Below are positions 579 through 21,909 of a stretch of DNA of 24,424 nucleotides, in pieces. Source of the stretch: Lysobacteraceae bacterium (lineage in GTDB: Bacteria; Pseudomonadota; Gammaproteobacteria; Xanthomonadales; Xanthomonadaceae); assembly GCA_017990865.1 (NCBI GenBank), contig JAGNNB010000002.1, forward strand, positions 1-24,424, given 5' to 3'. Numbering within the stretch: position 1 is the stretch's first letter; every line of letters starts with the position of its first letter. Under the pieces are notes generated by a model. The model was not told where the DNA came from. It was given only the letters and a program-made list of their open reading frames with translations, and did not search any database. The position numbers and the translations under genes were made by a program.

Positions 579-2090
579 ATGAATCTTGCGCTTGCGCACA
601 CCCGTGCGCGGTCGGGCGTGCGTGCGCCCGCGGTGAAGGTGGAGGTCTACCTCGGCGGCGGCCTGCCGCGGATGTCGATCGTCGGCCTGCCCGAAGCGGC
701 GGTACGCGAAGCCAAGGACCGCGTGCGTGCGGCGATCCAATGCGCGCAGTACGAATTCCCCGCGCGCGTCATCACCGTGAACCTCGCGCCGGCCGATCTG
801 CCCAAGGACGGCGGTCGTTACGACTTGCCGATCGCGCTCGGGATTCTGGCTGCGAGTGGTCAGATCCCCGTTCAGGCGTTGGCGGAATACGAATTTCTCG
901 GCGAACTCGGCCTGACCGGCGAGCTGCGCAGCGTCGATGGCGTGCTGCCCGCCGCCTTGGCCACTGCGCAGACCGGCCGCAAATTGATCGTGCCTGTCGG
1001 CAACGGCGCCGAGGCCGCGCTCGCGTCCGAGGTCGAGGCCTACACCGCGCGAACATTGCTCGAAGTCTGCGCCGCGCTCAACGGCAGCAAACGCTTGCCG
1101 CTCGCGACCGCACCCGTAGCGCAATACGACCACGGACCGGACCTGCGCGACGTGCGCGGCCAAACGCAGGCGCGACGCGCACTGGAAGTCGCGGCGGCCG
1201 GCGGTCATCACATTCTTCTCGTCGGCCCGCCCGGCTGCGGCAAGACCCTGCTCGCCTCGCGACTGCCGGGCCTGCTGCCCGACGCCAGCGAAGCCGACGC
1301 CTTGGAAACCGCCGCCATCGCCTCGGTGAGCGGTCGCGGCCTGGATCCGAGCCGCTGGCGCACACGCCCGTTCCGCAGCCCGCATCACACCGCCAGCGCA
1401 GTCGCTCTGGTCGGCGGCGGCGCCGATCCGCGCCCCGGCGAAATTTCGTTGGCCCATCACGGCGTCCTGTTCCTCGACGAGTTGCCCGAATGGGACCGCC
1501 GCGCGCTCGAAGTGCTGCGCGAACCGTTGGAATCGGGCGTGGTCACGATTTCGCGCGCCGCGCGGCAGAGCGAGTTCCCCGCGCGTTTTCAACTCGTCGC
1601 GGCGATGAACCCATGTCCGTGTGGCTGGGCAGGCGATCCTTCAGGCCGATGTCGTTGCCCGATCGATACCATCCGACGTTATCGCAGCAAGATCTCCGGC
1701 CCATTGCTCGAACGCATAGATCTGCATCTCGACGTGCCACGACTGCCGCCGTCGGCGTTGCGGCCGGATGCACCGGCCGGCGAGTCGAGCGATGTGGTCC
1801 GTGCACGCGTGGTGCGTGCGCGCGAACGCCAACTCGCACGCGCGGGCACGCTCAACAGTCGGCTCGATCAAGCGCAGACGATGGCGGCCTGTCGCTTGGC
1901 GCCCGCGGATCAAGCTCTGCTCGAACGCGCGATCGAAGCGCTGCAGCTCTCCGCGCGATCCATGCACCGCATCCTGCGCGTCGCGCGCACGATTGCCGAT
2001 TTGGCGGATAGCGATGTCATCGCGACGGCGCATTTGACCGAGGCGATCGGGTATCGCAAAGGCGAATCGGCGAGTCTGCGTGCGGCTTGA
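579..2090 (+). CDS. comM: ComM/YifB family Mg-chelatase-like AAA+ ATPase
   Basis: The 503-residue length matches ComM. The start MNLALAHTRARSGVRAP is typical of YifB/ComM and lies 11 bases after the ubiK stop, so the much longer open frame upstream was not used. An N-terminal Lon-protease-like domain (about 1-170) precedes an AAA+ module with Walker A GPPGCGKT (216-223) and Walker B GVLFLDELPEW (295-305). A cysteine cluster (CPCGW...CRCP) follows, then the C-terminal magnesium-chelatase helical domain ending AHLTEAIGYRKGESASLRAA. ComM is a hexameric helicase that drives branch migration of incoming single-stranded DNA during natural transformation. The gene is intact here, but pieces of its 3' end recur at 2267-2283 and 9873-9968, so its tail seems to mark the edge of an accessory block. 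Confidence 0.95.
   Translation: MNLALAHTRARSGVRAPAVKVEVYLGGGLPRMSIVGLPEAAVREAKDRVRAAIQCAQYEFPARVITVNLAPADLPKDGGRYDLPIALGILAASGQIPVQALAEYEFLGELGLTGELRSVDGVLPAALATAQTGRKLIVPVGNGAEAALASEVEAYTARTLLEVCAALNGSKRLPLATAPVAQYDHGPDLRDVRGQTQARRALEVAAAGGHHILLVGPPGCGKTLLASRLPGLLPDASEADALETAAIASVSGRGLDPSRWRTRPFRSPHHTASAVALVGGGADPRPGEISLAHHGVLFLDELPEWDRRALEVLREPLESGVVTISRAARQSEFPARFQLVAAMNPCPCGWAGDPSGRCRCPIDTIRRYRSKISGPLLERIDLHLDVPRLPPSALRPDAPAGESSDVVRARVVRARERQLARAGTLNSRLDQAQTMAACRLAPADQALLERAIEALQLSARSMHRILRVARTIADLADSDVIATAHLTEAIGYRKGESASLRAA
2040..2056 (+). repeat. 17-bp direct repeat, copy 1 (inside comM 3' end)
   Basis: The sequence gaggcgatcgggtatcg encodes the EAIGYR part of the ComM C-terminus. It recurs exactly at 2267-2283 and with one mismatch at 9915-9931, all in the same orientation. 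It may represent a recombination or attachment core, or remnants of gene-tail duplication. Confidence 0.75.
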
Positions 2091-2574
2091 TCGTTCGGCG
2101 TGGCGAGTATTCACTCTTGCGCACTCATCGGCATCTGCACGGCATTCGCCTCGCAGGCCGCACAAGCGTAAATATCGCACGTCATTCTATTTGATCGATG
2201 AGAAGTGAAACTGATCCCGCCAAAAATTGAAAAAGACCACACTGACCACTGATTTAGCGCGTAGCGGAGGCGATCGGGTATCGGCAGAGGGGTGAGCAGT
2301 AGCGTCACGAGCAACGTGAGTTCATCGGGCGACCTTCAGACCATCATCACAACTGGACAAAAGCCACACAGACCCTAGTTTTCGTTTTTTTTGAAAATCC
2401 GTAACTTTGGATGAAACGAATAGAGGCTCGGACTGCCATTACGGCCGTTTATTGACGACCTTTCAAACGCTGGATGTCCAATACTGTCTATACTCCCATC
2501 GGCCGGAATGCGGGCCTCTCATGGGCGGAATATCCATATTGGTTTTTGTTGTAAGTTGGCGAGCAGGAGACCAA
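2091..2574. other. AT-richer intergenic stretch before the ATPase cassette
   Basis: No gene is supported in these roughly 480 bases. The stretch is visibly AT-richer than comM, with runs such as ttttttt near 2385-2393, which fits foreign DNA. It carries the second 17-bp comM-tail repeat at 2267-2283. A -10-like TATACT lies at 2489-2494 without a good -35; a TTGACG at 2452-2457 is too far away to pair with it. A ribosome-binding sequence, GCAGGAGA, at 2562-2569 serves the ATG at 2575. The open frame continues upstream to 2407, but that extension has no recognisable sequence and the internal ATG has the ribosome-binding site. Confidence 0.6.
2267..2283 (+). repeat. 17-bp direct repeat, copy 2 (comM tail remnant)
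   Basis: An exact copy of comM 2040-2056 (gaggcgatcgggtatcg), 177 bases after the comM stop, in DNA otherwise unlike comM. It is flanked by 'gtagcg' and 'gcagag', so only the core is shared. Together with the fragment at 9873-9968 it brackets the segment carrying the ATPase/kinase cassette. Confidence 0.7.
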
Positions 2575-4455
2575 ATGAGCGTGTGGACGATCGAAGCTAT
2601 CGAGATCGGTGGCGGATTCCTTGAAGGCCTGTCGCTGCGCCTTCCTCGCGGTCTGACTTGCATCATTGGACCTCGCGGAAGCGGAAAGTCGACGATGGCC
2701 GAAGCCGCCCGGTACGTGCTCTCTGGGAACTCGATTCTCCCGAAGGCGCGCGCCGACCTGCTCCAAGCCAATCTCGGCGGTGGTGTGGTTGCTCTTAGAA
2801 CAAGCCCGGATGCTCGCGGCGAAGCTTGGATTATCAGGCGCCAGTACAAGCAACCTGCGAGCCTGTCGTCCTCCACGGGTCGGGTGGTCACCAGCGTCGA
2901 TCTGGACCGCGGCACGTTCCTACCGCTCGACGCCTATGCGAGCGCGGAAATCGAGGCGATCGCAGATGAGGCCGTCGGCGATCGGCGGCGGGCGCTGCTC
3001 GACGAACTGATCGTCGATGACCTACGGCCACTGCAGGCTCTCGTCTCCGAGCACAGGCGGGCCTTGGAAGCGAACGCGGAGCAGCAGAAGACCTCCCAAC
3101 GCGAGATTCAAGGCTTAACGGAGAAAATCGAGGAGCTGCGAGATCCGAGAGCGCGGCTGGCGCTGCTGCCCCCTGCCCCCCCCGACAGTACGTCCTCCGA
3201 TCTGCTGACGGCCTCACGCCAGCAGCAGATGAACACCCGCGAGGCAACGAACCTCGCAAATTCTCGCGCGGCGCTGAGCGCCCTGAGTACCGAGCTGTCA
3301 CGGGTCCTGAGCGTCCATTTGGGGACCTTCTCGACGTCCGTTGTGGTGGAGGGATCCGCGAACGCAGGTCTCATGGCCAAGGCGGATGTCGAGCTTCAGG
3401 GATTGGTCGACCGCACCGTGGCCGCCCTCACGGCGATTCAAAAGGATACCGCCGAGCGCGATCGAGTATTGGCCGAGATCACGAGCAACCTTCAGATTCA
3501 GCAAGGAACCCAAGCATCCCTATTCACCGACCTGCACCAGCGAAACTCGGCAACGAGTGAAGCCGCTCGCGTGCGCGCTGCGATCGAGCAGGAGGTGGCT
3601 CAGGTCGCCGAGTACGAGCGGCAGCGTGACGAGACTCACATCCGTTTGCGGGAACTTGCCGACGCCAGGAAGCGTTTGAAGGTGAAGTATCTCGGTGAGC
3701 GCGCCAAGATTTCGGAGATACGGCGCGACATCGCGAATCGTCTTCAACGCGACCTGGGCAACAAGGTCCGAATGCTGGTCATCGCCAACGCCGATCTTCA
3801 GGCGTATCAGCAGATATTGGTGAAGGGTCTGTACGGAGCGCGCGTTCGGAATCACGAGGACATCCTGGATGCCCTTCTGCGAATCGCGCCCGATCAACTG
3901 GGACAGATCATCAGAGACAACGACGTCGACGAGTTCGAACGCCTGTGCTCGTTCGGCGCCGAGCGGGCGGCCAAGATCCTCGGGGCGTTTCGTGAGAACG
4001 TGGACGCATACGAGCTGGAGCTGGTCTCCATCGAGGATCAGATCCGCATCGAGCTCAATGTATCGCCCGGCGACGTCGAGCATTTCAAGGACGCAAGCGA
4101 ACTGTCGCGTGGCCAGAAATGCACCGCACTGCTGCCACTCCTACTGGCGCGCCGACACTCGCCGCTCATCATCGATCAGCCGGAAGACAACCTGGACAAC
4201 CACTTCATCTACGAGACGGTCGTGGAAGCCATCCGGCGTCAGAAACAGCACCGCCAGATGATCTTCATTACCCACAACGCGAACATCCCCGTACTGGGAG
4301 AGGCCGAATTGGTCGTCGTAATGGATTCGGACGGGCGGCGAGGGTCGGTGATCAAGGCTGGGACGGTCGACCAATGCCGCTCGGAGATCATTGACCTACT
4401 GGAGGGCGGCGAGGAGGCCTTCGAACTCCGGCGGCAGCGCTATGCCAAGCGATGA
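2575..4455 (+). CDS. SMC/TrlF-like AAA family ATPase, first gene of three-gene signalling cassette
   Basis: This 626-residue ABC/SMC-type ATPase has Walker A GPRGSGKST at 32-40, a long helical, probably coiled-coil middle (about 150-430), ABC signature LSRGQK at 510-515, Walker B PLIIDQPEDNLDN at 530-542 and H-loop FITHN around His567. The C-terminal half (LSRGQK...LLPLLL...IIDQPEDNLDN...THNANIPVLG) closely resembles the ATPase module of TrlF-type proteins. The N-terminal PHP nuclease domain usual in TrlF is absent; the ATPase begins at once. The start at 2575 is preceded by AGGAGA. The 3' end overlaps the histidine kinase gene by 14 bases, so the genes are almost certainly translated together. 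Proteins of this class often act on DNA ends or serve as sensors in phage-defence operons. The specific role here is not known. Base composition looks less GC-rich than comM. Confidence 0.8.
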   Translation: MSVWTIEAIEIGGGFLEGLSLRLPRGLTCIIGPRGSGKSTMAEAARYVLSGNSILPKARADLLQANLGGGVVALRTSPDARGEAWIIRRQYKQPASLSSSTGRVVTSVDLDRGTFLPLDAYASAEIEAIADEAVGDRRRALLDELIVDDLRPLQALVSEHRRALEANAEQQKTSQREIQGLTEKIEELRDPRARLALLPPAPPDSTSSDLLTASRQQQMNTREATNLANSRAALSALSTELSRVLSVHLGTFSTSVVVEGSANAGLMAKADVELQGLVDRTVAALTAIQKDTAERDRVLAEITSNLQIQQGTQASLFTDLHQRNSATSEAARVRAAIEQEVAQVAEYERQRDETHIRLRELADARKRLKVKYLGERAKISEIRRDIANRLQRDLGNKVRMLVIANADLQAYQQILVKGLYGARVRNHEDILDALLRIAPDQLGQIIRDNDVDEFERLCSFGAERAAKILGAFRENVDAYELELVSIEDQIRIELNVSPGDVEHFKDASELSRGQKCTALLPLLLARRHSPLIIDQPEDNLDNHFIYETVVEAIRRQKQHRQMIFITHNANIPVLGEAELVVVMDSDGRRGSVIKAGTVDQCRSEIIDLLEGGEEAFELRRQRYAKR

Positions 4456-5461
4456 CGCCGTCGCGCAGGCGCTCAGCGACATGCGGCGCCTCGCGCTCGA
4501 GGATCCAAGGCAAGCCCGAGAGGCTGTCGAGCGGCTCGTTGAGGGCGACGCTGCGGTCATGGATGCTGTCCTTGTGGCACTCGACGAGCCGGGAGCAGGG
4601 CGTCTCCGTCAAGTGGTAGCGAACGCGGTCCGGCAGCATACGCAGAAAGAGCGCGTTCACCACCATCTGGTCCGTTGGCACGGCCTCGAGGTGGATGAGT
4701 TCGCGCGTAGGGCGATCTCCGCAGCTCTGGACGCGGACAGGCCAAAGACCAATAAGCTAGGAGCCATGTCCGCGGGTCTAGCAGTGACGCAGCCTGCGCT
4801 ACTGCAAACCTATCGCTACGTGGCCGATCGGTTGGCGCACGAATTGCGAAACGCTCTTTTGAGCCCGAAGGTGGCCCTCATCGACCTCAGCACCGAGATC
4901 GAGACCATCACCGATCCAGCCATCCGTGAGGCGGTAGAGTCCAAGTTTGCAGTCCTAGAGGCCGAGTTCAAGAGGCTTGGGCGCGTGATAGCGCTGGAGC
5001 CGGAAGACTCCCACTTCGAGATCCGCTCTATCGAGCTATCAGATTGGTTGTTGCGCATGAATGCCGAATACAGCAGGCACTATCGCAGCATCGATCTGTC
5101 TGTGGAGTTCGCGGAAGGTCACCGAGAAGCTCCGATCTCTGCCAGCGACTACCTCTTGCGTCTCATCTTCTGGAACCTATGGCTGAACGCGCATCAAGCC
5201 GTGGACGCGACGTGCGCGATATCAGTACGTATTGCCGTGCGGGAGACGGAGGTGCGCGTCCTGGTCCTCGACAATGGGGCTGGTTTTCCAGCTTACATGA
5301 CAGAGGCGGCTTTTCAGGAACAGTTTTCTAGGCATGGCCTGAATCGGGGCCGAGGTCTCCTCGAGGTTGCTGACGCAGCGCAGAGACTGCGGGGAGTGGC
5401 TTCGCTCGTCCGCCACGATGGGTGTCTTCGGGTGCTGTTAACCCTGCCGAGGCGACCATGA
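4442..5461 (+). CDS. Soluble sensor-less histidine kinase
   Basis: The 339-residue protein has a clear HisKA/HATPase arrangement: H-box RLAHELRN with phosphoacceptor His133 (residues 130-137), N-box FWNLWLNAHQA with Asn245 and Asn249, G1-box VLDNGAGFP (Asp277, Gly279, Gly281) and G2-box NRGRGL (301-306). The first 115 or so residues are helical with no recognised sensor domain, and there is no membrane segment or signal peptide, so the kinase is cytosolic and probably takes its input from a partner protein. The ATG at 4442 (MPSDDAV) was chosen because it lies inside the 14-base overlap with the ATPase gene; its ribosome-binding site is weak, which fits translational coupling. It overlaps the receiver gene by ATGA. 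Its cognate receiver is presumably the next gene. Confidence 0.85.
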   Translation: MPSDDAVAQALSDMRRLALEDPRQAREAVERLVEGDAAVMDAVLVALDEPGAGRLRQVVANAVRQHTQKERVHHHLVRWHGLEVDEFARRAISAALDADRPKTNKLGAMSAGLAVTQPALLQTYRYVADRLAHELRNALLSPKVALIDLSTEIETITDPAIREAVESKFAVLEAEFKRLGRVIALEPEDSHFEIRSIELSDWLLRMNAEYSRHYRSIDLSVEFAEGHREAPISASDYLLRLIFWNLWLNAHQAVDATCAISVRIAVRETEVRVLVLDNGAGFPAYMTEAAFQEQFSRHGLNRGRGLLEVADAAQRLRGVASLVRHDGCLRVLLTLPRRP

Positions 5462-7038
5462 GCTACCCGCGGACTGCTCAGGTACTGATCATTGAGGATG
5501 ACCAGCGCCCGAAGGCGCTCTATGACAAGATATTCGAGGCGGTGCTTCCGAAGAAGGGTCTGTCAATCGATCCCCCGCAATACGCATTCTGCCTAGAGGA
5601 TGGCCTCCGGCAGCTGGCGTCGGACCGCATGTTTCACTTGGTGATCCTGGACCTGCAGTTGCCCGAAGTGGCAGGGCAGCCCGCGCCCGAGTCCATCGAG
5701 TTCGGTCAGGCGCTCCTGAAGGCGTGTATCGAGCGAGAGGACTATCCCATTCCGTGCCTGCTGGTGATCAGTGGTCACTTGAACAAGGCCAAGCAAAGTG
5801 AGCTAGAGGAGTCCGTGCGCCAGGGGTTCGCCTATGGCCGCGTTCTGGTCAAGAGCGACGACCTTGCCGACGAGATCGCCACGGCCGTACGGGAGGCGCA
5901 TAGGTACTGCGACGTTGGTGTGCACCTGCGCGATGCCGATGCTCGGGCATTTCCGACGCTGTCGCCACGGGAGGAGTATCTCCTGCGGCTCGCAGCCCTA
6001 AGGGAGCAGACGAGCGGCTTGGACTTGGAGTGGTGGTCTGCCCAGAGCGATCAAGGCGGGGTGTGGACGAAGACCCTCATGGGCCGGTTCATCTTGAATA
6101 ATGCACGGGGCTTCTCGCTGCACAGCTTTTTCAAGTTCGGCGAGAGCAAGTGGGCGGAGACGACGTTTGGTGATGCCCAGGCGATGGGGCAGAAGCTCAA
6201 GCACGTGAAGGTACAGGGGCGACTCATTGCAGGCTCGCGGAGTCTTCTGATCACGCAGGCGGCCACAAGCGGTGATGGTGCCCCGCTCTCCTTGTCGGAC
6301 GTGCTTGCGATGCCGACAGATCAAGTGGCCGCCCAATTGACTGCTATCGCCGTCGACGTGGCCGAGCAAGTCAAGCGCCTCGGCGACACCTCGCCGGACG
6401 AGCGCCCAGTCGCCGAGCTGATCTGGTCCCACCACGACCGTGCGATCATCAAGGCCCAATGGCAGAGCCGGGCCGACGGCGACACCCGTGCCGGCGCGAA
6501 TCCGATCGATCTCTACGACCGCCTCAAGGCAAGTCGTTACCTCGTGCGTCATTCCCGGCAGACCATGCTTCACGGTGACCTGAACTTCACGAACATCGCA
6601 GTCGAGTTCGTGTCAGAGAAGCCTCTGGCCTTCATCTTCGATGGCGAAGGGTGCGCAGCCGGTGTGAACGTGGCTGACTTGGCGACACTGGAGGTCACCT
6701 TGCTGCTTCAACAGGATGCAGACGGCCGCGAGCCAGAGATTGTGGCGCACTGTAAATCACTTTATTGCCTGTCTGCCGAGCCCGGCGGAACCGATCTTTC
6801 ACGCGCCGAGAACACTCGCTTGCTGGTACAGGCAATTCGCGATGAGGCTCTCAAGGTCGCTACGCTTGAGACGTATGCGCTGATGGTGTTCGACAAGGCG
6901 CTAATGCAGCTCGGCGGGCTGGGCATCCAGTCCACCGGAAACAAGATCAGATCGCACGCCGATGCGGCCCGGGTAGCGGGGTTCGCGGCGGCATGGCTCC
7001 TGGAGGTCGCGCCACATCTGGCGGACGCGGCGAAGTAG
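5458..7038 (+). CDS. Response regulator receiver fused to APH/kinase-like phosphotransferase domain
   Basis: This 526-residue fusion starts with a complete receiver domain (about 8-150): acidic pair Asp14/Asp15, phosphoacceptor Asp65 in LVILDLQLPE, Ser105 and Lys132 (RVLVKSDD). The C-terminal two thirds hold an aminoglycoside-phosphotransferase/protein-kinase-like fold. HGDLNFTNI at 372-380 is the Brenner motif (His372, catalytic Asp374, Asn379). FDGEG with Asp395 is the metal-binding position, and NVADLATLE with Asp407 is the usual structural Asp. A region around FFKFGES (225-231) could carry the ATP-binding Lys. No DNA-binding domain is present, so the likely output is phosphorylation of a small molecule or protein. 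The ATG at 5458 overlaps the kinase stop (ATGA). The substrate is unknown. It closes the cassette, and no strong terminator follows. Confidence 0.82.
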   Translation: MSYPRTAQVLIIEDDQRPKALYDKIFEAVLPKKGLSIDPPQYAFCLEDGLRQLASDRMFHLVILDLQLPEVAGQPAPESIEFGQALLKACIEREDYPIPCLLVISGHLNKAKQSELEESVRQGFAYGRVLVKSDDLADEIATAVREAHRYCDVGVHLRDADARAFPTLSPREEYLLRLAALREQTSGLDLEWWSAQSDQGGVWTKTLMGRFILNNARGFSLHSFFKFGESKWAETTFGDAQAMGQKLKHVKVQGRLIAGSRSLLITQAATSGDGAPLSLSDVLAMPTDQVAAQLTAIAVDVAEQVKRLGDTSPDERPVAELIWSHHDRAIIKAQWQSRADGDTRAGANPIDLYDRLKASRYLVRHSRQTMLHGDLNFTNIAVEFVSEKPLAFIFDGEGCAAGVNVADLATLEVTLLLQQDADGREPEIVAHCKSLYCLSAEPGGTDLSRAENTRLLVQAIRDEALKVATLETYALMVFDKALMQLGGLGIQSTGNKIRSHADAARVAGFAAAWLLEVAPHLADAAK

Positions 7039-7159
7039 CTCGAGGAAAACCGGGGGCAGTGTGGACTTTCCCCACAACGCGTAGCGGCCCAGTCCGAAAG
7101 ACCGGCTCACGACGCAGCATCAGCATGACGGGCACTTCTTCCCTGTACTCATTCACGCC

Positions 7160-7877
7160 ATGCCACGCCCGACCAGACTTGATGTGCCCGGAGTGCCGCA
7201 GCACATCATCCAGCGCGGCAACGATCGCCAGCCCTGCTTCTTTGTCGACGCGAACTACCTCCGCTATCGCAGCGATCTGCATGAGGTCGCCATGCGTGAA
7301 GGCTGCGCGGTGCATGCCTATGTGCTGATGACCGACCATGTCCACCAGCTTGTCACGCCGATGAAGGAAGGCGCGATCGGCCGGGTAATGCAATCGCTGG
7401 GCCGGCGTTACGTGCGCTCCATCAACGACCGATACCGTCGGACCGGCACGCTCTGGGAGGGTCGCTACAAGGCGTGTCTAGTCGAAAACGGCGGCTACCT
7501 GATGCGGTGCCATCGTTACATCGAACTCAATCCGTTGCGCGCCACCATGGTCGTCGATCCAAGGACTACCCGTGGTCGAATCATCGAAGCAATGCCTACG
7601 GTGAATACGACCCCCTGGTCTCGCGCACGCCGGGTATCTGTCGCTATCCAGCGACCCGACGGAACGTCAGCGGGTCTACCGTGCGCCGGTCATGGAGACG
7701 GTAGGCCCGGACGAGGTGGACGCCATCCGCCGGCATCTGTAGTGCCAGCATGCTTATGGGTAGAACCGGTTTCGCGCGGTGATCGAAGCACAGCTTGGAC
7801 GAGCGGCTGGTCCCCGCAAGATCGGCAGGCCGAAAAAGTCGGATCAGACGCAACACAACCGGGAAAAGCGACTATGA
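7160..7877 (+). pseudogene. Decayed REP-associated tyrosine transposase (RAYT, HUH type)
   Basis: The intact N-terminal part begins MPRPTRLDVPGVPQHIIQRG and includes the HUH metal motif DHVHQLV (His60, His62) and LWEGRYKACLVE, typical of RAYT/Y1-transposase proteins. The expected continuation is broken. A one-base deletion near 7561 moves the reading frame so that KDYPWSNHRSNAYGEYDPLVSRTP follows. A second frame change near 7634 gives YLSLSSDPTERQRVYRAPVM. Two in-frame TAG stops follow at 7740-7742 and 7761-7763. The rest, RFRAVIEAQLGRAAGPRKIGRPKK, ends at the TGA at 7875. Because homology persists across all four lesions, this is a recently inactivated gene of about 240 codons. The 256-residue open frame that can be drawn here is therefore artificial in its last 120 residues. 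Confidence 0.88.
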
Positions 7878-7937
7878 CCCTAGTTTCCTCTTCCCGCTTG
7901 AACGCCAAACGCCGCAGGCATCGGGCATGATTCGCGC

Positions 7938-9848
7938 ATGGACCGGACGCCTCTCCTCATTCTTTTCGCCATCGCCTGCCTGTTGCCGACGACGCTCGTG
8001 GCGCAGAACGGCGCGCGCCCTGCCTCGCAAACCCCGTCGGCGGAGCTGTTCGACACACTGGCCGAGCGTTACGGCGTGCGCGGCAACGACGAATTGGCGG
8101 GCGATGATGTCGTCAAGGCCAGGATCGCCGAGCTGACGCGCGCGCTGCCCCCGAACGACTCCGTGCGCAGCGCGCGCCTCGATGCGTATCGCTGCATCAC
8201 CATCGTCGACGGCCCCGATGCTTCGCTGGCGCGGGCCGAGGCCGGGCTCGCCGGACGGCCCGCGCAGCGCGAGCCTCTGGTGCGGATGGAATACCTGATG
8301 TGCAAGGCGTACGCGTTTTACAGCCAAGGCCTCCGCACCGAGTACATGGTTCCGGTGAACGATGTGCTGCGGCTCGCCGATGCTGAGCGGCATCCACGCT
8401 TGCGCTCCGGCGCGCTCATGCTGCGCTCGTTCCACGAAAGCGACCAGGGCCGCTACGCGCAGGCGCTGACAACCTTGCATGAGGTGCTGGCGCTGGATCG
8501 GAATCGCGACGTGCCGAACGCGATACTCCGCACGGAAATCATGACCGCCGAAACCTTCAGTGAGCTCGGCCTCAACGAGCGTGCGATCGTCGTGCTTCGC
8601 GCACTCGAGAAGAATGCGCGCGCAGCAGGTCAGCCAGGCAACCTGCAGATGGTGTTGGAGCGCCTGGGCCAAGCCGAAGAGGAGTCAGGGCGCCTCGACG
8701 CCGCGCTCGCGCATTACCGGGAGGCGGAAGCGCAGGCGCGCTTGGGGGGCGCGCAAGACAGCCATGCCTCCTTGATACTTCGGATCGCCCATGTCCATGT
8801 ACTGGCCGGTCGTCTGGACGACGCGAGAAGCGCGCGCGATGAAGCCGAGCGCATGCTGTTGAGCAACGGGCTGACGGGGGCCATGCGCGCGCGGCGCGGC
8901 TACCTCGATGCGCTCATCGCGCTCGAGTCCGGCGATGCCGGCCGCGCCGCCCAATTGCTGCCGGATGTGCTGCAGCGTCTTCGCGACGACGACCAACCGC
9001 GACCGCTGGCCGATGCGCTCGACGTGCAAGCGCGCGCCTATCGCGCACTCGGGCAATGGCGTGCGGCGTTGGACGCGCGCGAGGAACAAATCCGACTGCG
9101 CGCACAGCTCGATGAGCGCATGCAGCGCGAACAGGCGCGCGTGCTCGCCGCCGAGCTGGCGCTGAGTCGGGAAACCGCCGACAAACTGCGCTTGTTGCGG
9201 CAAACGGATGCGCAACAGCTCCAGTTGCAAGCTGCGCAGCGCGAACAGCGCCTGCGACTGATCGCGATCGCGCTGCTGGCGTTGCTGCTCGCCGCGATGG
9301 CGGGTTTGCTGCTGCTGACCCGCCATCGTCTGCGCGGTGCGCGCTACGACGCGATGACCGACAGCCTGACCGGCGTCGTCTCGCGGCGTTACCTGCTGAA
9401 TCATCTCGCGCGCATGTTGTCCGACCGACGCGCCGCCGCTTATCCGCTATCGGTGCTGGCGATCGACATCGACCATTTCAAGCAGATCAACGATCGCTTC
9501 GGCCACGCCGTGGGCGACGAAGTGCTGCGGCGCGTGACCGAGGCCTGCCGGCGCGCATTGCGCGAAACCGACGAGTTCGGCCGCATGGGCGGCGAGGAGT
9601 TCATGGCCGTGCTGCGACGGACCTCGCTCGCGCATGCCGAACAACTCGGAAAGCGGTTATGCGAGGTGGTCGCGGCCTTGACGATGGACGATGTGGCGCC
9701 CGACCTGCGCGCCACCATCAGCATCGGCGTGGCCGAAGCGGCGGCGAACGACGAAGGCGCCGACCGCTTGCTGCTGCGCGCCGATGCCGCGCTCTACGAC
9801 GCCAAACGCAGCGGCCGTCATTGCGTCCGGGTCGCGCCCATGCAGTAG
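7938..9848 (+). CDS. TPR-containing membrane diguanylate cyclase (GGDEF)
   Basis: The protein has 636 residues. A signal peptide (about 1-22, ending LVAQ) precedes a large periplasmic region of TPR-like helical repeats (about 60-390) and a coiled-coil stretch, then one membrane helix (about 440-462, RLIAIALLALLLAAMAGLLLL region). The cytoplasmic GGDEF domain has an intact active site GGEEF at 551-555, and an inhibitory I-site RETD (542-545) lies exactly five residues upstream, so product inhibition is expected. It should make cyclic di-GMP from two GTP in response to a periplasmic or envelope cue sensed by the TPR region. This architecture is common in Xanthomonas-family genomes. No good ribosome-binding site precedes the ATG at 7938. 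It lies between the decayed transposase and the comM-tail fragment, so it may belong to the accessory block. Confidence 0.9.
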   Translation: MDRTPLLILFAIACLLPTTLVAQNGARPASQTPSAELFDTLAERYGVRGNDELAGDDVVKARIAELTRALPPNDSVRSARLDAYRCITIVDGPDASLARAEAGLAGRPAQREPLVRMEYLMCKAYAFYSQGLRTEYMVPVNDVLRLADAERHPRLRSGALMLRSFHESDQGRYAQALTTLHEVLALDRNRDVPNAILRTEIMTAETFSELGLNERAIVVLRALEKNARAAGQPGNLQMVLERLGQAEEESGRLDAALAHYREAEAQARLGGAQDSHASLILRIAHVHVLAGRLDDARSARDEAERMLLSNGLTGAMRARRGYLDALIALESGDAGRAAQLLPDVLQRLRDDDQPRPLADALDVQARAYRALGQWRAALDAREEQIRLRAQLDERMQREQARVLAAELALSRETADKLRLLRQTDAQQLQLQAAQREQRLRLIAIALLALLLAAMAGLLLLTRHRLRGARYDAMTDSLTGVVSRRYLLNHLARMLSDRRAAAYPLSVLAIDIDHFKQINDRFGHAVGDEVLRRVTEACRRALRETDEFGRMGGEEFMAVLRRTSLAHAEQLGKRLCEVVAALTMDDVAPDLRATISIGVAEAAANDEGADRLLLRADAALYDAKRSGRHCVRVAPMQ

Positions 9849-9872
9849 GCGCGGTGCCGCGCGGTCTTCGTC

Positions 9873-9968
9873 GACTCGGCGGACAGCGACATCATCGTCA
9901 CAGTGCATTTGACCGAGGCGATCGGATATCGGCCCAGGAAGCGCAGCGCAAGCGCGCGTTGCGGCTGA
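9873..9968 (+). pseudogene. C-terminal fragment of comM (diverged duplicate)
   Basis: The reading frame gives DSADSDIIVTVHLTEAIGYR, against DLADSDVIATAHLTEAIGYR near the end of the intact ComM: 16 of 20 identical, with mostly synonymous or conservative differences. After this the reading frame drifts, but DNA similarity continues to the comM stop region ('gttgcggctgatcg' here, 'cgtgcggcttgatcg' there). Weaker similarity may start near 9858. No earlier part of comM is present. Most simply it is the old comM tail displaced or duplicated when foreign DNA entered at the comM 3' end. Its divergence from the present comM suggests the incoming DNA brought its own tail. Confidence 0.82.
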
Positions 9969-10451: not shown

Positions 10452-11486
10452 ATGATCAAGGTACAGTGGCAGGCGCCGCAAACGCTTGCCGAAGTGCAAG
10501 CGGCGGTACAGACGGCGATCGATCTGGAATTCTCGACGCTGCCGCCCTATCTCTACGCGAAGATGACGATTCTGCCGGAGAGCAATCCAGCGGCGCTGGC
10601 GCGGCTCAATACGATCGTCGGGCAAGAAATGATCCACATGTGCCTCGCCTGCAACATCATGAATGCGATCGGCGGCACGGTGAAGATCAACCCGCCCAGT
10701 TATCCGGGCCCCCTGCCGGGCGACATCGGCGGCGGCCTCATCATCCATCTGCTGCCGTTCTCGCAAGCCGCGATGGCGCAGGGCATGGCGATCGAGGAGC
10801 CGTCGGAGCCGATCGATCCGCCCATACTCAAAATGGAGGCCGCGATCACGGCGGTCACGATCGGCGAGTACTACCACCTGCTCGATCAAGTGCTGGCCGC
10901 CTTGCCGGCATCGGCATGGATCGCCGGTAACAAGCAGATCGACGACAGCCAATTCTTCGCGGGCCAGATTTTTCCGGTCAATGCCTATGCGGACGCGCAC
11001 AAGGCGATCACGCAGATCGTCTCGGAAGGCGAAGGCACGCCGGTCAGCCCGAACGGCAACGGCAGCCCGCTGACCTTCCAGAACGAGTTGGCGCATTACT
11101 ACCGGTTCTGGGAGATGGAACAGAACATGGTGCTGGTGAAGGATCCCAATCCTGTCGGCTACGCCTGGAAAGGCTCGCTGGGCATCGACTGGAGCCAAGT
11201 CTACCCGGCGATCGCCGATCCGGAATCGCACGATTTCTCGAGCGATCCTCCCGCCGCGCGCGCGGCGCAAACGGCCTGCAACGACGCCTACACCGCGCTG
11301 GTCGATGCCCTGACCTCGGCATTCGCGGGCGCCTCCGCCGGCATGGGGATCGCGGTGCGCGCGATGTTCGATCTGCGCATGGCCTCGATCCAGGCCCTGA
11401 ATACGCCGCTGGGGGATGGCATCTCCGTGGCCGGCCCGGCGTTCGTCTACAACGCTCATACACAAGCACAAGGAGACGCGGCATGA
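10452..11486 (+). CDS. Ferritin-like domain protein (VioB C-terminal-like, iminophenyl-pyruvate dimer synthase family)
   Basis: The 344-residue protein has the ferritin-like fold found in the C-terminal half of VioB and related proteins. Probable metal ligands are Glu26 (DLEFSTLPPYLYA), Glu59/His62 (GQEMIHMCL), Glu139/His142 (IGEYYHLL) and His215 in NELAHYYRF. In VioB this region belongs to the enzyme that couples two indole-3-pyruvate imines in violacein synthesis. Stand-alone homologues occur widely, mostly uncharacterised. No other violacein-type gene (VioA, C, D, E) is in the window, so violacein production is not implied. The start at 10452 has a strong AAGGAG. The stop overlaps the next ATG (ATGA), and a second AAGGAG lies within the 3' end for the downstream gene, so the two are co-translated. 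Confidence 0.82.
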   Translation: MIKVQWQAPQTLAEVQAAVQTAIDLEFSTLPPYLYAKMTILPESNPAALARLNTIVGQEMIHMCLACNIMNAIGGTVKINPPSYPGPLPGDIGGGLIIHLLPFSQAAMAQGMAIEEPSEPIDPPILKMEAAITAVTIGEYYHLLDQVLAALPASAWIAGNKQIDDSQFFAGQIFPVNAYADAHKAITQIVSEGEGTPVSPNGNGSPLTFQNELAHYYRFWEMEQNMVLVKDPNPVGYAWKGSLGIDWSQVYPAIADPESHDFSSDPPAARAAQTACNDAYTALVDALTSAFAGASAGMGIAVRAMFDLRMASIQALNTPLGDGISVAGPAFVYNAHTQAQGDAA

Positions 11487-13342
11487 GCATTCTCGAATTT
11501 CCGCGCGTTTATTTCCGCGGCGAAATCGCCTGGGACCCGGTCACGACCAACAACTATGCGGTCGGCGACGCGGCGGCGGCCTACGACGAAAACGCCTGCG
11601 ATTCTTATCTGAACCAGAGCCGGGTGCTGACCCCGGAAGTTGCCGGCTTCCGCCAAGCGGCGATCCAGGAAGTCCTCACCGGCGGCAGTTGGAACCCGGC
11701 CGGCACCTATCGGTGTCCGTTCTACGACACGTACATCAGCGGTGTCGATCTGGGAGCGGGCCTGGTGACCACAGACACCTTCGCCACGGCGCCGGTCGGC
11801 TTCACCGGCATGCTCGTCGATTGCGAACCCTACGGCGCGTTCTCCTCGCAGTTGTTCTTCGACGATATGAGCTTCGGCATCCAGGGCGGATGCCGTATCT
11901 ACGGCAAGCGGATCGAGCGCTTCAACGACCGCTTCGTCAACTTCAGCGCCAATCCCAGCAACAACATGATCGCAGGCGTCGCGTCGGTGATGTGGCAAAG
12001 CTGTTTCGCCAAGGGCGCGGGGCTGGATATCGACGCCCACGATTCGCTGGCGCTGCAGCGGTTGAAGGCCTGCATGATGGACGACGACGTGCTGGGCGTG
12101 ATGGTCCGCTTCGTCACCTATCGCACGGTCTATTACAACGACCCGACCCTGGCGAACGGCTCGCCCAAGACCGCCTCAGCCGCAAGGGCGCTGCAGAACA
12201 AGCTCAACAGCGGCGGCTTCCAGCCCAATCCGGCCCGCAGCCTTCTGGTCGGCACCGTGGGACTGTGGCGCAGCGGCGAAGTGATCACCGAGGCATCGGA
12301 TCGAGCCCTGATCTCGACCATGGCGACGGTGCCCGGCTACTCGTCTCCGGCCAAAGGCGGGCCCGTGGTGGCCACGGCCTTCGCGCGCACCAACAACAAG
12401 GGCATTTCGCTGGATTTCTCCAACTCGATCCCCTGCTCGGATCGCGCCACGGACAAGGTGGACCTGGGGACGTTGACGCTGACCGCGGCAGATCCACCGC
12501 CTGCGGTGGCGATCGCGGAGGTCGCGAAGATCGATCTGAGCCACTACGACCGCGCGGCGTTCGAAGCCTCTTCGGGAATCATCGACATCCCGCTCGATGC
12601 CGGCCTGACGAAGCAATTGGCCAGGATGAACCTGTCGATCACCGGCGGCGACGGCACGACCTACTTGCAGGAAGCCGTGCTTCGCGCCGTTCCGTTGCAG
12701 GCCAACATCTACATCGACGAGGGCGAGACCGCGAACATCCCGGTGCAGGTCTACGAACGCGGCGTGCCGGCCGGCCCGGGCATCACCATCACCATGTCGG
12801 ATTTGAATGCGACCCAGCAGACCAGCGTGCAGCAATTGACCGACGCCAATGGCCGGGTCAACTTCCGCGTATTGGGCACGACCGGCGAAATCATCGGCTG
12901 GGTGTTCCAGACCGGCGACCATCCGATTCTGCCCGTCGGCAACGTGTTCACGCCGCTGAATTTCACCTACACATATCTTCGGGTTTTGCCGGCGGACAAC
13001 AACGTCGCCGCGATGGCGCCCACTTGGGAGAACGTACACAACTACGTGCTGGCCAACTGGGAATCGATGGCGCCGTGCATGGACAACTGGCTGCGCCTGG
13101 GCGACGAGCAGCAGGTTCGGGCCTACCGCAACGTGATCCGGACGCTGACCGACCCGGCCAACTTCGAAAACTTCCGCTACATGCCGGTGACCCGCGACCT
13201 GACGATGGGACAGCGCACGCTGCTGTACAACTTCCTGGGATTCGGCACGGCTCGGGCAACGCTCGAAAATGCGGACGCGTCGGACGAACAGATCGATGCG
13301 CGGACACAGAGCCGGTCGATGCGGGTCGGCCGAAAGGACTGA
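11483..13342 (+). CDS. VioB N-terminal-like protein
   Basis: The 619-residue protein has no signal peptide. From remembered VioB sequence it matches that protein's N-terminal half: start MSILEFPRVYFRG (VioB: MSILDFPRIHFRG), MDDDVLGVMV near 199-208, VGTVGLWRSGE at 256-266, GIIDIPL at 365-371 and YMPVTRDL at 566-573, in the same order as in VioB. VioB places this part ahead of the ferritin-like domain in one chain of about 1000 residues. Here the two halves are separate genes in reversed order, joined by a 4-base ATGA overlap with AAGGAG just upstream. The pair may therefore form a heteromeric enzyme acting on an amino-acid-derived imine, but the substrate is unknown. A strong hairpin follows 21 bases after the stop. 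Confidence 0.75.
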   Translation: MSILEFPRVYFRGEIAWDPVTTNNYAVGDAAAAYDENACDSYLNQSRVLTPEVAGFRQAAIQEVLTGGSWNPAGTYRCPFYDTYISGVDLGAGLVTTDTFATAPVGFTGMLVDCEPYGAFSSQLFFDDMSFGIQGGCRIYGKRIERFNDRFVNFSANPSNNMIAGVASVMWQSCFAKGAGLDIDAHDSLALQRLKACMMDDDVLGVMVRFVTYRTVYYNDPTLANGSPKTASAARALQNKLNSGGFQPNPARSLLVGTVGLWRSGEVITEASDRALISTMATVPGYSSPAKGGPVVATAFARTNNKGISLDFSNSIPCSDRATDKVDLGTLTLTAADPPPAVAIAEVAKIDLSHYDRAAFEASSGIIDIPLDAGLTKQLARMNLSITGGDGTTYLQEAVLRAVPLQANIYIDEGETANIPVQVYERGVPAGPGITITMSDLNATQQTSVQQLTDANGRVNFRVLGTTGEIIGWVFQTGDHPILPVGNVFTPLNFTYTYLRVLPADNNVAAMAPTWENVHNYVLANWESMAPCMDNWLRLGDEQQVRAYRNVIRTLTDPANFENFRYMPVTRDLTMGQRTLLYNFLGFGTARATLENADASDEQIDARTQSRSMRVGRKD

Positions 13343-13558: not shown

Positions 13559-13972
13559 ATGACCGAATCGCATGGCGGCTGCCTCTGCGGCGCTGTCGGA
13601 TTTTCGCTGGACTGGCCCAGCAAGTGGGTCGCGCATTGCCATTGCACGCAATGCCGTCGCGCCCACGGCGCTGCGTTCGTGACGTGGATCGGCATGGCCG
13701 AGGATCGCGTGCGTATCGACGACGCCGAATCGCAACTGCGCTGGTTCGCGTCCAGTCCCGGCGCCGAGCGCGGATTCTGCGCGCGTTGCGGCAGTTCGCT
13801 TTTTTTCCGTTCGGCGCGCTGGCCGGGCGAGCTGCACATCGCGCACGGGAATCTCGACGGCGAAGCCGACCGCGCGCCGATGGCGCATGTGTTTTGGGAT
13901 ACGCACGTGGGCTGGGCTTCGGTCGATGCCACCGACGCTCTGCCGCGAATCGTCGCGACCGAGGTGACGTGA
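13559..13972 (+). CDS. GFA family (glutathione-dependent formaldehyde-activating-like / CENP-V) zinc protein
   Basis: The 137-residue protein carries the full set of GFA zinc ligands: GGCLCGAV (Cys8, Cys10), HCHCTQCRRAHG (Cys27, Cys29, Cys32) and FCARCGSSLFF (Cys74, Cys77). Family members bind two zinc ions in a Mss4-like fold. A few act on S-hydroxymethylglutathione, but most have no proven substrate, so a detoxification role is only the default guess. No strong ribosome-binding sequence precedes the ATG at 13559. The gene stands alone on the plus strand, facing the minus-strand array of exported paralogues, with the truncated repeat just upstream. Confidence 0.9.
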   Translation: MTESHGGCLCGAVGFSLDWPSKWVAHCHCTQCRRAHGAAFVTWIGMAEDRVRIDDAESQLRWFASSPGAERGFCARCGSSLFFRSARWPGELHIAHGNLDGEADRAPMAHVFWDTHVGWASVDATDALPRIVATEVT

Positions 13973-14070: not shown

Positions 14071-14619
14071 CTAGCGCACGTTGCAGACTTCCGAGTGCTG
14101 GGCGTCGCCCTGGCATTTGCCGATCGTGCGCGCGCTCTTGCGCGCGTTTTCCTTGTGTTCCCGGTACTCGCGGCCGGTCATGCAAACGGTGGTGAAGCGA
14201 TGGCTGCCCGCTAATCGCGTCCGTTCGCAGACTTGGCGATCATCCTCGGCCTGCGTCACCGCCGCATTGACCGACTGCAGATGATTGAAGACCTCGACGC
14301 GCTGTTCGACGCGCAGTTCGTCCAAGTTCTGATGACCGTCGAGCATCTGCAACAGTCGGTCTTGTTGTTTCAGCAAGCGGTCGCGATCGCCGTCGTGCAT
14401 GTCCTTGAACGCACCGCGTTTGGCGGCGACCTGCGTTCGCAATTGCGTCTGCTGTTCGACGATCTGCTGCAACGTCGGCTGCGGCGGCTCGGCAGCAGGC
14501 GGGTCGGCGGCCATGGACGCGAAACTGACGCCCAATGCGACCGCCAACCCGCAAACCTTCCATGCGCGCGCGGCCGCATGTTGGCGACGTAGATTTCTTT
14601 CGAATGCGAATGAACTCAT
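14071..14619 (-). CDS. Exported Cys-X14-Cys family protein, paralogue 1
   Basis: The 182-residue protein has an N-terminal signal peptide (basic start, hydrophobic stretch about 22-35, likely cleavage after ASMA at 37). The mature part is highly charged and helical. It shares with its neighbours the block TLQQIVEQQTQLRTQV, then VEVFNHLQSVNAAVTQAEDDRQ, then VCERTRLAGSH with Cys131, and VCMTGREYREHKENARKS with Cys146. Two extra cysteines (169, 179) near the C-terminus are shared in number with paralogues 2 and 3. I know no function for this family. The periplasm is the likely site, with disulfide formation between the paired cysteines. An AGAGGGAA ribosome-binding sequence precedes the start. 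It is the most downstream member of the array, 70 bases after paralogue 2. Confidence 0.8.
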   Translation of the reverse strand: MSSFAFERNLRRQHAAARAWKVCGLAVALGVSFASMAADPPAAEPPQPTLQQIVEQQTQLRTQVAAKRGAFKDMHDGDRDRLLKQQDRLLQMLDGHQNLDELRVEQRVEVFNHLQSVNAAVTQAEDDRQVCERTRLAGSHRFTTVCMTGREYREHKENARKSARTIGKCQGDAQHSEVCNVR

Positions 14620-14689
14620 ATGTATTCCCTCTTTGGTGGGTTGGTTCGGTAACGGCGCATCGACGATATCGAGTGTTCGTGTCCGATCG

Positions 14690-15229
14690 TCAGTCCGAGT
14701 TGCATCCGCCTTCGCACTTCATCACCGTGCGCAGACTTTTACGGGCGTTTTCCTTGTGTTCTCGATATTCGCGTCCGGTGATGCACACGACGGAATAGCG
14801 ATGACTGCCCGTCAGACGCGTGCGTTCGCAGATGAGTCTCTCGTCTTCCGCTTGGGCCACCGCGGCCTTGACCGATTCCAAATGGTTGAACACTTCGACG
14901 CGCTCTTCGGCGCGCAGCCCATCGAGGCTGTCGCGCCCCTTCAACAGTTCGAGGATGCGGTCCTGCTGCGCCATCAAACGATGGCGGTCGCCTTCCGACA
15001 TCTCTCTGAACGGGCCGCGCCTGGCCGCGACCTTCGCGCGCAGCTCGATCTGCTGGGCGACGATGCTCGCGATCGTCGGCGCCGCGGCCGCGGAAGCCGC
15101 TTCGTTGGAGCGAACGCGGTTGCCCGCGACCGCCCACGTCGTCGCTGCGAGCGCGACGACGCAGAGCGCGACGGCGGCGGCGCCGCGAAAGCGAGCGGAC
15201 AGATCCTTTGCGAAAAAGGCCATGATCAT
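14690..15229 (-). CDS. Exported Cys-X14-Cys family protein, paralogue 2
   Basis: The 179-residue start MIMAFFAKDLSARFRG was chosen because AAGGAG lies 8 bases upstream. The frame is open for 105 more codons, but these resemble no protein and overlap paralogue 3. The alternative ATG at 15256 lacks a ribosome-binding site. A hydrophobic signal or anchor segment (about 17-36) precedes a helical mature region. Conserved blocks are RVEVFNHLESVKAAVAQAED, ICERTRLTGSHRY (Cys134) and VCITGREYREHKENARKS (Cys149), then Cys172 and Cys176 at the tail. It is most like paralogue 1 in the C-terminal block. It probably forms one transcription unit with paralogues 1 and 3 (gaps of 70 and 68 bases). No function is recognised. 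Confidence 0.8.
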   Translation of the reverse strand: MIMAFFAKDLSARFRGAAAVALCVVALAATTWAVAGNRVRSNEAASAAAAPTIASIVAQQIELRAKVAARRGPFREMSEGDRHRLMAQQDRILELLKGRDSLDGLRAEERVEVFNHLESVKAAVAQAEDERLICERTRLTGSHRYSVVCITGREYREHKENARKSLRTVMKCEGGCNSD

Positions 15230-15297
15230 CGCGATGTCTCCTTGCGGGCGCTTCATCGCAGCCCCGATGCGCCGAATCGATGGAAAACCCGCGCGAC

Positions 15298-15891
15298 TCA
15301 AAGGATGTTCACTGCGACTTTTCTTTCGCCGCCGAGGCTGCCGCCCAATTCGTTCTTGCAGCCCAGCGTTTCTTTGCCTTGGCACTTCACCGCCGTACGC
15401 AGACTTTGCCGCGCGCGTTCTTTGTGCTCGCGATACTCTCTGGCGGTCATGCACACGACTTGAAAGCGATTCGAACCGACCGTGCGCGAACGCTCGCACA
15501 CTTGTCGATCTTCTTCGGCGTTGCGCACGACCGCACTTACCCATTGCAGGTGATTGAACAGCTCGATCTTGTCTTCGGCGCGCAGTTGCGACACGTCGTC
15601 ACGACCATCCAGAAGCTGCAGAATCCGGCTTTGTTTCGCGGTCAATTCGTCGCGTTCGATCTGCGTGAGATCCTTGAACGCGCCCTTCCTGGCCAACACA
15701 TCGGCACGCAATTGCGTTTGTTGCTCGACGATCTGCTGCACCGTCGGTTGCTGCGTTTCCGCTTCGGGCTCCGGCGTCGATTGGGCGAGCACCGAGCAGC
15801 AGAACGCCGCGCTCAAGGCGAGAGCGAGCGTCGCGGCGAGTGCGCGTCGGCTGCGGGGTGCGATGGCATCGGAAGCGATTGCGAACGTCAT
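15298..15891 (-). CDS. Exported Cys-X14-Cys family protein, paralogue 3
   Basis: The 197-residue start MTFAIASDAIAPRSRR has a GAGGA sequence about 8 bases upstream; a longer open frame exists but is not supported. The signal peptide runs to about residue 36 (SVLA, then QS). The mature part follows the family pattern: TVQQIVEQQTQLRADV, IELFNHLQWVSAVVRNAEEDRQ, VCERSRTVGSNR (Cys132), VCMTAREYREHKERARQS (Cys147), plus Cys170 and Cys178. It has the longest C-terminal tail of the five. It heads the group of three closely spaced genes; 638 bases containing a MITE-like repeat separate it from paralogue 4. Function unknown. Confidence 0.8.
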   Translation of the reverse strand: MTFAIASDAIAPRSRRALAATLALALSAAFCCSVLAQSTPEPEAETQQPTVQQIVEQQTQLRADVLARKGAFKDLTQIERDELTAKQSRILQLLDGRDDVSQLRAEDKIELFNHLQWVSAVVRNAEEDRQVCERSRTVGSNRFQVVCMTAREYREHKERARQSLRTAVKCQGKETLGCKNELGGSLGGERKVAVNIL

Positions 15892-16529
15892 AACGAAATC
15901 CTCAGGAGGTGAATGCGGTCGCGAATCGCAGCATCGAATCGCGGTCGTGGACGGGTCTCGAATCGCGGCCGAACGCCACCGATGCCGCGACAAGCGCAGT
16001 CATGAACGGTCGGCAGCGCTCCGCTGCTGGTGAAGAAGTCCCTCGGGAACGAAGACGCCCGATTCGGCAGGGCGTCTTGGAGCCTGTTCAAAATCTGCTG
16101 CGCTCGGTGCTTTCGCGCCGTCCGCTGCTCGAAATGCTCATGTACCTTTACGTACACTCCGCTTTCTGCGCTGCGGGCGGCGCGAAATCCCCATCGCTCG
16201 CGACGATTTTGAACAGGCTCTTGAACGTGAGGATGTCGGACCGCGCGAAAAGGTCGCAGTCTTCGTCGAAGGCGTTGAAATGGCCGATGCGGTCCGCGCC
16301 GCCGAATCGGCGAGAGGGCCTCGAGAGACGGCGCGAAGGCGCTGTGTGTGCGCCGAAGATGCGAGGTCGAGGCTCCGAACCGCGGAGGCCTCGCTGAACG
16401 AGGATGACGCGTTCGCGGCATTCGCGCGGGCACTGAACCGCCGTGGAGAGCCTCAGATACGCCCGAGGCCACGATGTCCGCACACGCCAGGGCGACGTGT
16501 CGGCCCCGACCTTGCGAAACGCTTCGGGT
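15892..16529. other. Gap in the paralogue array holding a MITE-like element
   Basis: The repeat at 16080-16220 occupies the middle. On the minus strand the frame crossing the repeat reads HFNAFDEDCDLFARSDILTF and then into the repeat, but it has no start signal or recognised homologue. The rest (16221-16529) is GC-rich without a convincing gene on either strand. It is longer than the other gaps in the array, suggesting inserted DNA or a decayed sixth copy; I could not recognise family motifs in it. Confidence 0.5.
16080..16220 (-). mobile_element. MITE-like element with terminal inverted repeats
   Basis: A non-coding unit of about 141 bases is bounded by perfect inverted ends: agcctgttcaaaatc at 16081-16095 and gattttgaacaggct at 16205-16219, extendable by one pair (g16080/c16220). 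Flanks ttg on both sides could be a 3-base target duplication, but that is ambiguous. Bases 16081-16173 match 13403-13495 in inverse orientation with five mismatches. On the minus strand it carries the small open frame MSISSSGRRESTERSRF, one residue different from the other copy. There is no transposase inside; mobilisation in trans would be required. Confidence 0.75.
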
Positions 16530-16985: not shown

Positions 16986-17104
16986 CGTCGCCTCCGAGCC
17001 ACCGTCCGAAATGTCGGTGTACCACAACCGCAGGCGATGCGCACCTGGGCTGCCCTCGGTAGGCCGCCCTCAGCCGGTGCCGCGGGCGGTCCAGAAGCGG
17101 CGGG

Positions 17105-17554: not shown

Positions 17555-17600
17555 GCGGCGTTCTTCGAAAATTGCGGGACCGCACAGCATACGCAAATCG

Positions 17601-17620: not shown

Positions 17621-17631
17621 GAAGTCATGCG

Positions 17632-21883: not shown

Positions 21884-21909
21884 GGTTCGCGAAAACCATA
21901 TGTCGCATC

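Follow-up and report, generated by a model that had tools for sequence, protein, structure and literature searches.

The window analyzed here, a 24,424-nucleotide stretch of the genome of a Lysobacteraceae bacterium, contains downstream of comM a cassette of three genes that encode an ATP-binding cassette (ABC)/SMC-type ATPase (gene 1), a histidine kinase (gene 2), and a receiver domain fused to a domain of the aminoglycoside phosphotransferase (APH)/choline kinase fold (gene 3; Table 1). Genes 1 and 2 overlap by 14 bases and genes 2 and 3 by 4 bases, as recorded in the initial annotation of this DNA; all three frames are open, and the residues listed there as catalytic (K38, D534 and H567 of gene 1, H133 of gene 2, and D65, H372, D374, N379 and D395 of gene 3) are all at the positions named. 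An AGGAG ribosome-binding site lies 5' of the gene 1 ATG at 2575, and a scan of positions 2080-7200 detected no sigma-70 promoter before gene 1 (chance expectation 1.1). No additional signaling gene lies directly 3' of gene 3 among the open reading frames (ORFs) of the window. The cassette does have the lower G+C content first attributed to it, but the difference is mild: 61.7% compared to 64.0% in the remaining window, with values of 68.7% upstream (231-2090) and 67.8% in the downstream GGDEF gene.

Table 1. Features of the cassette and of the adjoining comM region in the window
Feature	Position	Strand	Evidence
Gene 1, ABC/SMC-type ATPase, 626 amino acids	2575..4455	+	Open frame, motifs intact
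Gene 2, histidine kinase, 339 amino acids	4442..5461	+	Open frame, motifs intact
Six-helix HEAT-like N-terminal domain of gene 2 (residues 1-97), entirely helical	4442..4732	+	Predicted structure; profile match
Gene 3, receiver fused to APH/choline-kinase-fold domain	5458..7038	+	Frame, fold model, motifs
comM (YifB-like, Mg-chelatase family)	579..2090	+	Pfam Mg_chelatase, 8.7e-95
comM 3' end, first copy	2040..2093	+	DNA comparison with relatives
Second comM 3' end, remnant	2255..2375	+	Identical 17-bp core, 2267-2283
IS200-like (Y1) transposase relative, within the comM-end interval	7160..7930	+	Pfam Y1_Tnp, 5.2e-13
TPR-GGDEF gene	7938..9848	+	Pfam
Remnant of a third comM 3' end, which closes the interval	9872..9931	+	83.3% over 60 nucleotides to window 1997-2056

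Products of the three genes

Gene 1 possesses a Walker A motif (K38), a signature motif (S511-G513), a Walker B motif (D534-E537), and H567. In a comparison of five ATPases D534, E537, and H567 are present in all five and K38 in four, the exception being a relative cut by the contig end. The protein matches the TrlF model NF045780 (1.5e-85, 288.7 bits) over model positions 291-943 of 944 and, as judged from this alignment, is a TrlF-like ABC/SMC ATPase that lacks the N-terminal portion of approximately 290 model positions. Its ATPase half resembles that of TrlF, but its score is below the 350-bit cut-off, positions 1-290 are missing, and its partner genes are unlike those of TrlF, so that we do not assign it to that family. 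The missing portion presumably corresponds to the PHP part of TrlF, although Pfam gave no PHP domain in L086, the sole long-form relative scanned. In L086 (7572-11522) the long-form ATPase adjoins a Schlafen AlbA_2/HATPase_c_4 gene. Gene 1 also matches the PADLOC model mad3 of MADS (9.4e-23) and has Rad50/SMC kinship.

Gene 2 encodes a putative kinase that we judge to be soluble, with the motifs H133, N249, D277/G279, and G303/G305. Nine positions (H133, N137, N245, N249, D277, G279, G281, G303, and G305) are invariant in the 18 kinases compared. This kinase had been described as sensor-less, which is incorrect because a helical N-terminal domain, evident in the structure model and by profile match, had been overlooked. 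The whole length of gene 2, including the HEAT-like part, aligns with kinases of Planctomycetota (hhalign probability 98.6, E 1.2e-15) that carry Pfam HEAT_2; a HEAT_2 match was found in all six of the Planctomycetota kinases scanned, in two of them above the cut-off. Pfam detected no TPR match in the gene 2 N-terminus.

The gene 3 product comprises a receiver (residues ~5-151, with D65) and an APH-fold domain (~167-520, with K226, H372, D374, N379, and D395). Its predicted structure (predicted local distance difference test score, 94) consists of a receiver and an APH-fold kinase, and the top Foldseek matches of the model are APH(3')-Ia. A protein database yielded 107 relatives in addition to gene 3 itself. 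Among these 108 sequences, D65 is conserved in 106 (two gaps), K226 in 107, and H372, D374, N379, and D395 each in 107 (one gap). The fold model and the conserved catalytic residues thus bear out the proposed receiver-APH fusion, and they add the N-lobe lysine K226, which had been missed. With the fold, the catalytic lysine, the HxD....N motif, and the aspartate of APH/choline kinases all present, gene 3 is a putative kinase. Pfam matches to TCAD9 and APH were both below their cut-offs (TCAD9, PF19974, 21.0 bits with 40 required), and many gene 3 family members carry PF19974. The C-terminal part of gene 3 matches 132 of 133 collected proteins, P0110 and P0140 weakly; P0153 does not match. In P0140 and P0153 a receiver and an apparent APH N-lobe are joined to another C-terminus, for which Pfam gave no match, making them candidate alternative effectors.

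The APH fold and the prominence of APH(3')-Ia in the Foldseek search raise the possibility of an inducible antibiotic-inactivating enzyme, in which the APH domain would modify a drug sensed by the relay. We consider this explanation very unlikely.

Distribution of the cassette and exchange of its outputs

The three genes had been proposed to form a conserved neighborhood, and they do occur together elsewhere. A scan of genome contigs with gene 3 recovered four further loci (L009-L012), one in Bryobacteraceae (Acidobacteriota) and three in Planctomycetota. All four have the ATPase, kinase, and receiver-APH genes in identical order, with a 4-base overlap of kinase and receiver in each; in L010 the ATPase runs past the contig end. 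Full gene 3 matches are otherwise scarce. In 369 Gammaproteobacteria the only one was in the genome of the window, with 18 others showing weak part-matches (best, 8.9e-9). In 392 Planctomycetota and in 250 genomes from the order of L009's genome, only the genome on which each sample was centered matched, and in 102 genomes from the order of L012's genome the central genome and that of L010 did. These four samples therefore contained no full match beyond the five known genomes. This rarity may be overstated, since only a few candidates were scored in each genome and the words required by the contig scan were strict. No gene 3 match was found in viral contigs, plasmids, or phages, and an ATPase search of 274 Gammaproteobacteria genomes returned only two proteins, the ATPase of the window and a long-form ATPase.

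The ATPase is more widely distributed. The association of ATPase, kinase, and receiver was first seen with profiles of the window family, by Pfam or by position; nine of the Planctomycetota kinases and 11 of the receivers described below went into the profiles used for the final Planctomycetota and IMG/VR counts. Among 246 Planctomycetota genomes, 15 have matches to the ATPase profile, at 21 places in all, one of which is the known G370 locus. Thirteen of these ATPases, from eight genomes, are short (265-384 bits), and at all 13 a HEAT-kinase and then a receiver gene follow (in L066 the kinase is split over two frames). At the remaining places no kinase or receiver was present in the short flank (0/7; L046 has no room for one). 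The IMG/VR database yielded 43 loci, of which 26 lack the long N-terminal extension and 17 are long. Where the contig continues, the short loci have the kinase in 24 of 24 cases and the receiver protein in 21 of 21; three of the 26 are cut or broken, and some are near-duplicates. None of the 17 long ATPases (730-1035 amino acids) has a kinase or receiver next to it, L149 ending at the ATPase.

Relatives of gene 1 in plasmids and phages are part-length matches only: nine records at E <= 1e-30, none covering 80%, and seven records at E <= 1e-10 with 19-22% covered. A Klebsiella cassette was traced from these matches, and a tblastn search of plasmids with its receiver-APH protein retrieved 48 records, 36 of them Piscirickettsia. 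We opened nine plasmid loci from eight genera (Klebsiella twice, Caballeronia, Vibrio, Leclercia, Shinella, Pantoea, Rhizobium, and Piscirickettsia). The diverged receiver-APH triad is complete at eight, two of which are near-identical; the Piscirickettsia locus has a short kinase piece and a receiver protein and no ATPase. The plasmid homes include conjugative IncF plasmids. Phages contained no match to the plasmid-type receiver protein, and E. coli genomes no near match to the Klebsiella cassette.

The proteins encoded beside the ATPase differ among these relatives. Three of the four Planctomycetota receiver proteins scanned have DeoR/HTH-type tails. In the order of L009's genome, which we take to be Bryobacterales, seven of 200 genomes match the ATPase, including L009's own. 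In four of those genomes the ATPase closely resembles that of the window (843-864 bits) and is followed by a gene that retains only the HEAT-like part and continues as a SpoIIE phosphatase, and no receiver gene is next at the three of these loci whose contig continues. The kinase half is replaced by SpoIIE in these four genomes; therefore, the input, made up of the ATPase and the HEAT domain, is constant, and outputs can be exchanged. The outputs seen with this input are receiver-APH proteins, receivers with DNA-binding-type tails, and SpoIIE phosphatases. That the ATPase persists when the output changes, as a sensor should, agrees with the suggestion that it is the candidate sensor. The larger of two ATPase trees nests the SpoIIE loci in the window's group with starred support; in the other tree this nesting is not starred. 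The branch with the window and the plasmid receiver-APH types on one side has a support of only 85/80, and long branches meet there. A further locus of the seven, L085, encodes a diverged ATPase, a HEAT-kinase, and a receiver-APH protein that passes the TCAD9 (47.3 bits) and APH cut-offs. L084, the last of the seven, was rejected as a cassette: it retains a 131-amino-acid ATPase remnant, and the kinase and receiver genes there, at a distance of >2 kb, resemble an ordinary pair.

Genomic neighborhoods and the comM 3' end

Pfam and PADLOC were run on selected ORFs picked by eye. At the Planctomycetota loci ten such ORFs were scanned, and seven of them have a PADLOC match at 1e-3. L059 has BrxL (1.6e-132) and a weak PglZ match upstream of the ATPase, a type I methylase lies alongside the cassette in L063 (5.6e-163), and an HNH restriction enzyme adjoins the receiver gene in L058 (2.3e-25); weaker or less telling matches lie beside the cassette in L062, L058, and L066, and L061 has a weak mad8 match. 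On plasmids, the Caballeronia triad has an integrase on one side and, on the other, two genes away, a DEAD helicase/DUF1837 pair that we take to be Hachiman-like. The Vibrio triad is near an AbiEii-type toxin gene, and the Leclercia triad is flanked by two VapBC pairs. The Shinella, Pantoea, and Klebsiella loci have plasmid, insertion sequence (IS), and other genes, none recognized by name as a defense gene.

The conjugative IncF and other plasmid homes, the VapBC pairs on both sides of the Leclercia triad, and the IMG/VR loci would also be accounted for by a module for the maintenance or competition of plasmids or other mobile elements, acting in addiction or exclusion rather than in host immunity. 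Addiction modules, however, are not usually three-step relays with a separate sensor. Furthermore, among the genes scanned at the close loci, mobile ones are found only in L010 (a serine recombinase), L012 (an IS transposase ~8 kb away), and the window (the Y1 relative). A role of this kind is, in our estimate, improbable.

The site that the cassette occupies in the window is itself variable in related genomes. Of 30 relatives, 26 have a comM homologue at E <= 1e-80. DNA similarity to the window's comM was compared in nine relatives (eight of the genus and one of the family). It stops at 2056 in all of them but L108, where it stops at 2011, and the sequence that follows mostly differs among them, L113 and L114 sharing the first gene. 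The second comM end in the window is 84.9% identical over 73 nucleotides to the comM end of L108. Because the comM 3' end is present in three copies and the sequence after comM varies in relatives, the cassette has the appearance of accessory DNA carried at a variable site. The TPR-GGDEF gene is probably outside the system; it is also found near comM in the congener L108, with 83% DNA identity over window positions 7894-8860. In the congener L107, 4.4 kb are inserted at the comM 3' end, and a second copy of this end closes the insert. Its genes (2349-6587) encode a caspase-domain protein (Pfam 1.4e-9; PADLOC 3.9e-13), a weakly alpha/beta-hydrolase-like protein, an unmatched protein, and a helix-turn-helix (HTH) protein, possibly a separate conflict system.

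Other parts of the window are summarized here. A ferritin-like protein (Pfam 5.5e-45) is encoded with a 4-base overlap to a 619-amino-acid protein without a Pfam match (10452-13342). An ARAGORN tRNA-Gly (13606-13694) inside a GFA-domain gene (13559-13972) is probably false. Adjacent ORFs on the minus strand (14071-17628) encode similar small, exported-looking proteins with stretches shared by eye, and look like a tandem family; Pfam gave no match for the two scanned. An ORF at 21880-22581 resembles by eye a REP-associated tyrosine transposase, has no Pfam match, and has similar translated stretches on either side that suggest flanking repeats.

Relation to known systems and proposed role of the cassette

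The best-described effector of Detocs is an ATP-cleaving purine nucleoside phosphorylase (PNP), and Detocs possesses a TPR sensor and a receiver-only gene and no ABC ATPase. A published description presents three genes and a PNP effector (PMC11249213). Detocs and the cassette are both three-gene two-component systems with a receiver-enzyme effector, and motifs and co-occurrence pair the kinase of the cassette with a receiver-enzyme fusion. The cassette differs in its APH effector (Pfam found no PNP in gene 3), its HEAT input, its ATPase, and the absence of a receiver-only gene and of a TPR sensor. The view that the cassette follows a Detocs-like scheme with a different effector is thus supported: its logic is that of Detocs, and its parts are not.

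Other systems resemble the cassette in single components. The receiver half of gene 3 (residues 4-148) weakly matches PADLOC SduA of Shedu (1e-5), but its effector is APH-fold rather than a DUF4263 nuclease, and Pfam detected no nuclease in gene 3. Gene 1 is the only one of the three genes scanned with matches to mad models, so that the mad1-mad8 set of MADS is absent among them. TCAD9 is named in a figure legend among the vWA-MoxR-VMAP ternary conflict systems (PMC10910872), and another study reports the absence of histidine kinase domains among vWA-associated effectors (PMC7159879). The gene 3 family often carries PF19974, but the cassette lacks vWA and MoxR partners: Pfam gave no vWA or MoxR match in 15 window ORFs (comM has other AAA-type matches), and membership in the ternary systems was rejected. 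In the two-gene OLD-ABC systems WonAB and PARIS, according to published reports (PMC12137116, PMC12839542), an ABC ATPase likewise triggers a separate effector; these have nuclease effectors and no phosphorelay. The literature searched contained no description of the triad; the main ABC-ATPase survey (PMC7544218), outside that search, may list it.

On balance we favor the interpretation that the three genes form a mobile conflict system, directed most likely against phages or plasmids, in which an ATPase gates a two-component relay with an APH-kinase output; its defense role is inferred. The short TrlF-like ATPase would bind a structure of nucleic acid or nucleoprotein that arises during invasion. 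The HEAT-like domain of the kinase would read an ATP-driven change of the ATPase, which would switch the autokinase or phosphatase state of the kinase; gene order and the output swaps suggest this pairing, and with it a putative contact. Phosphate on H133 would then pass to D65 of the receiver, as the intact motifs and co-occurrence suggest, and the receiver would release the fused APH-fold kinase. This kinase may phosphorylate a target in the cell, either a small molecule or a macromolecule, and so stop growth or phage replication.

Several observations weigh against this interpretation. Defense neighbors are present at the more distant relatives, but none was found among the selected ORFs beside the five close loci: the twelve neighboring ORFs of the window are ordinary-looking by Pfam, and none of ten ORFs flanking L009-L012, some perhaps not genes, has a PADLOC match. 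Because the ORFs beside the distant loci were chosen by eye, we claim no enrichment. The HGDxxxxN motif is present in the receiver-APH protein at seven of the nine plasmid loci and absent in Vibrio and Pantoea, whose catalytic loops may have diverged. E134, beside the kinase histidine, is kept in 14 of the 18 kinases and lost in four. Finally, SpoIIE and DNA-binding outputs are usual in stress signaling too. The last point suggests an alternative, host DNA-damage or replication-stress signaling, with the ATPase as a sensor of broken or stalled DNA and the output as a means of adjusting physiology. The DeoR/HTH tails (3/4 receivers) and the SpoIIE domains at four loci are typical outputs of such signaling, the ATPase has Rad50/SMC kinship, and the close loci lie among ordinary genes. 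However, the very sparse distribution, the plasmid homes, the variable chromosomal site, the virus-database contigs, and the defense neighbors at several distant loci argue against a host stress response, which we regard as rather unlikely. The observations of the initial annotation stand, and its interpretation of the cassette as a defense system is borne out in part.

If the cassette is an ATPase-gated conflict system, its relatives could belong to an unnamed family of ABC-ATPase-gated signaling immune systems, a broader proposal that we advance tentatively. Such a family would combine one input, the short TrlF-like ATPase and HEAT domain, with interchangeable outputs on plasmids, virus-database contigs, and chromosomal sites. 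These outputs would be an APH-fold kinase activated by its receiver, transcription factors with a receiver, or a phosphatase of the PP2C type, and the APH kinase would represent a new kind of immune effector, one acting by phosphorylation of a metabolite or macromolecule. Phosphorelay immunity would then be broader than Detocs, an ABC ATPase could serve as a two-component sensor, outputs would be swapped like cassettes, and the molecule phosphorylated by the APH kinase would become directly testable. Furthermore, a neighborhood rule of short TrlF-like ATPase, HEAT-kinase, and receiver-X would find new effectors in plasmids and virus-derived DNA.

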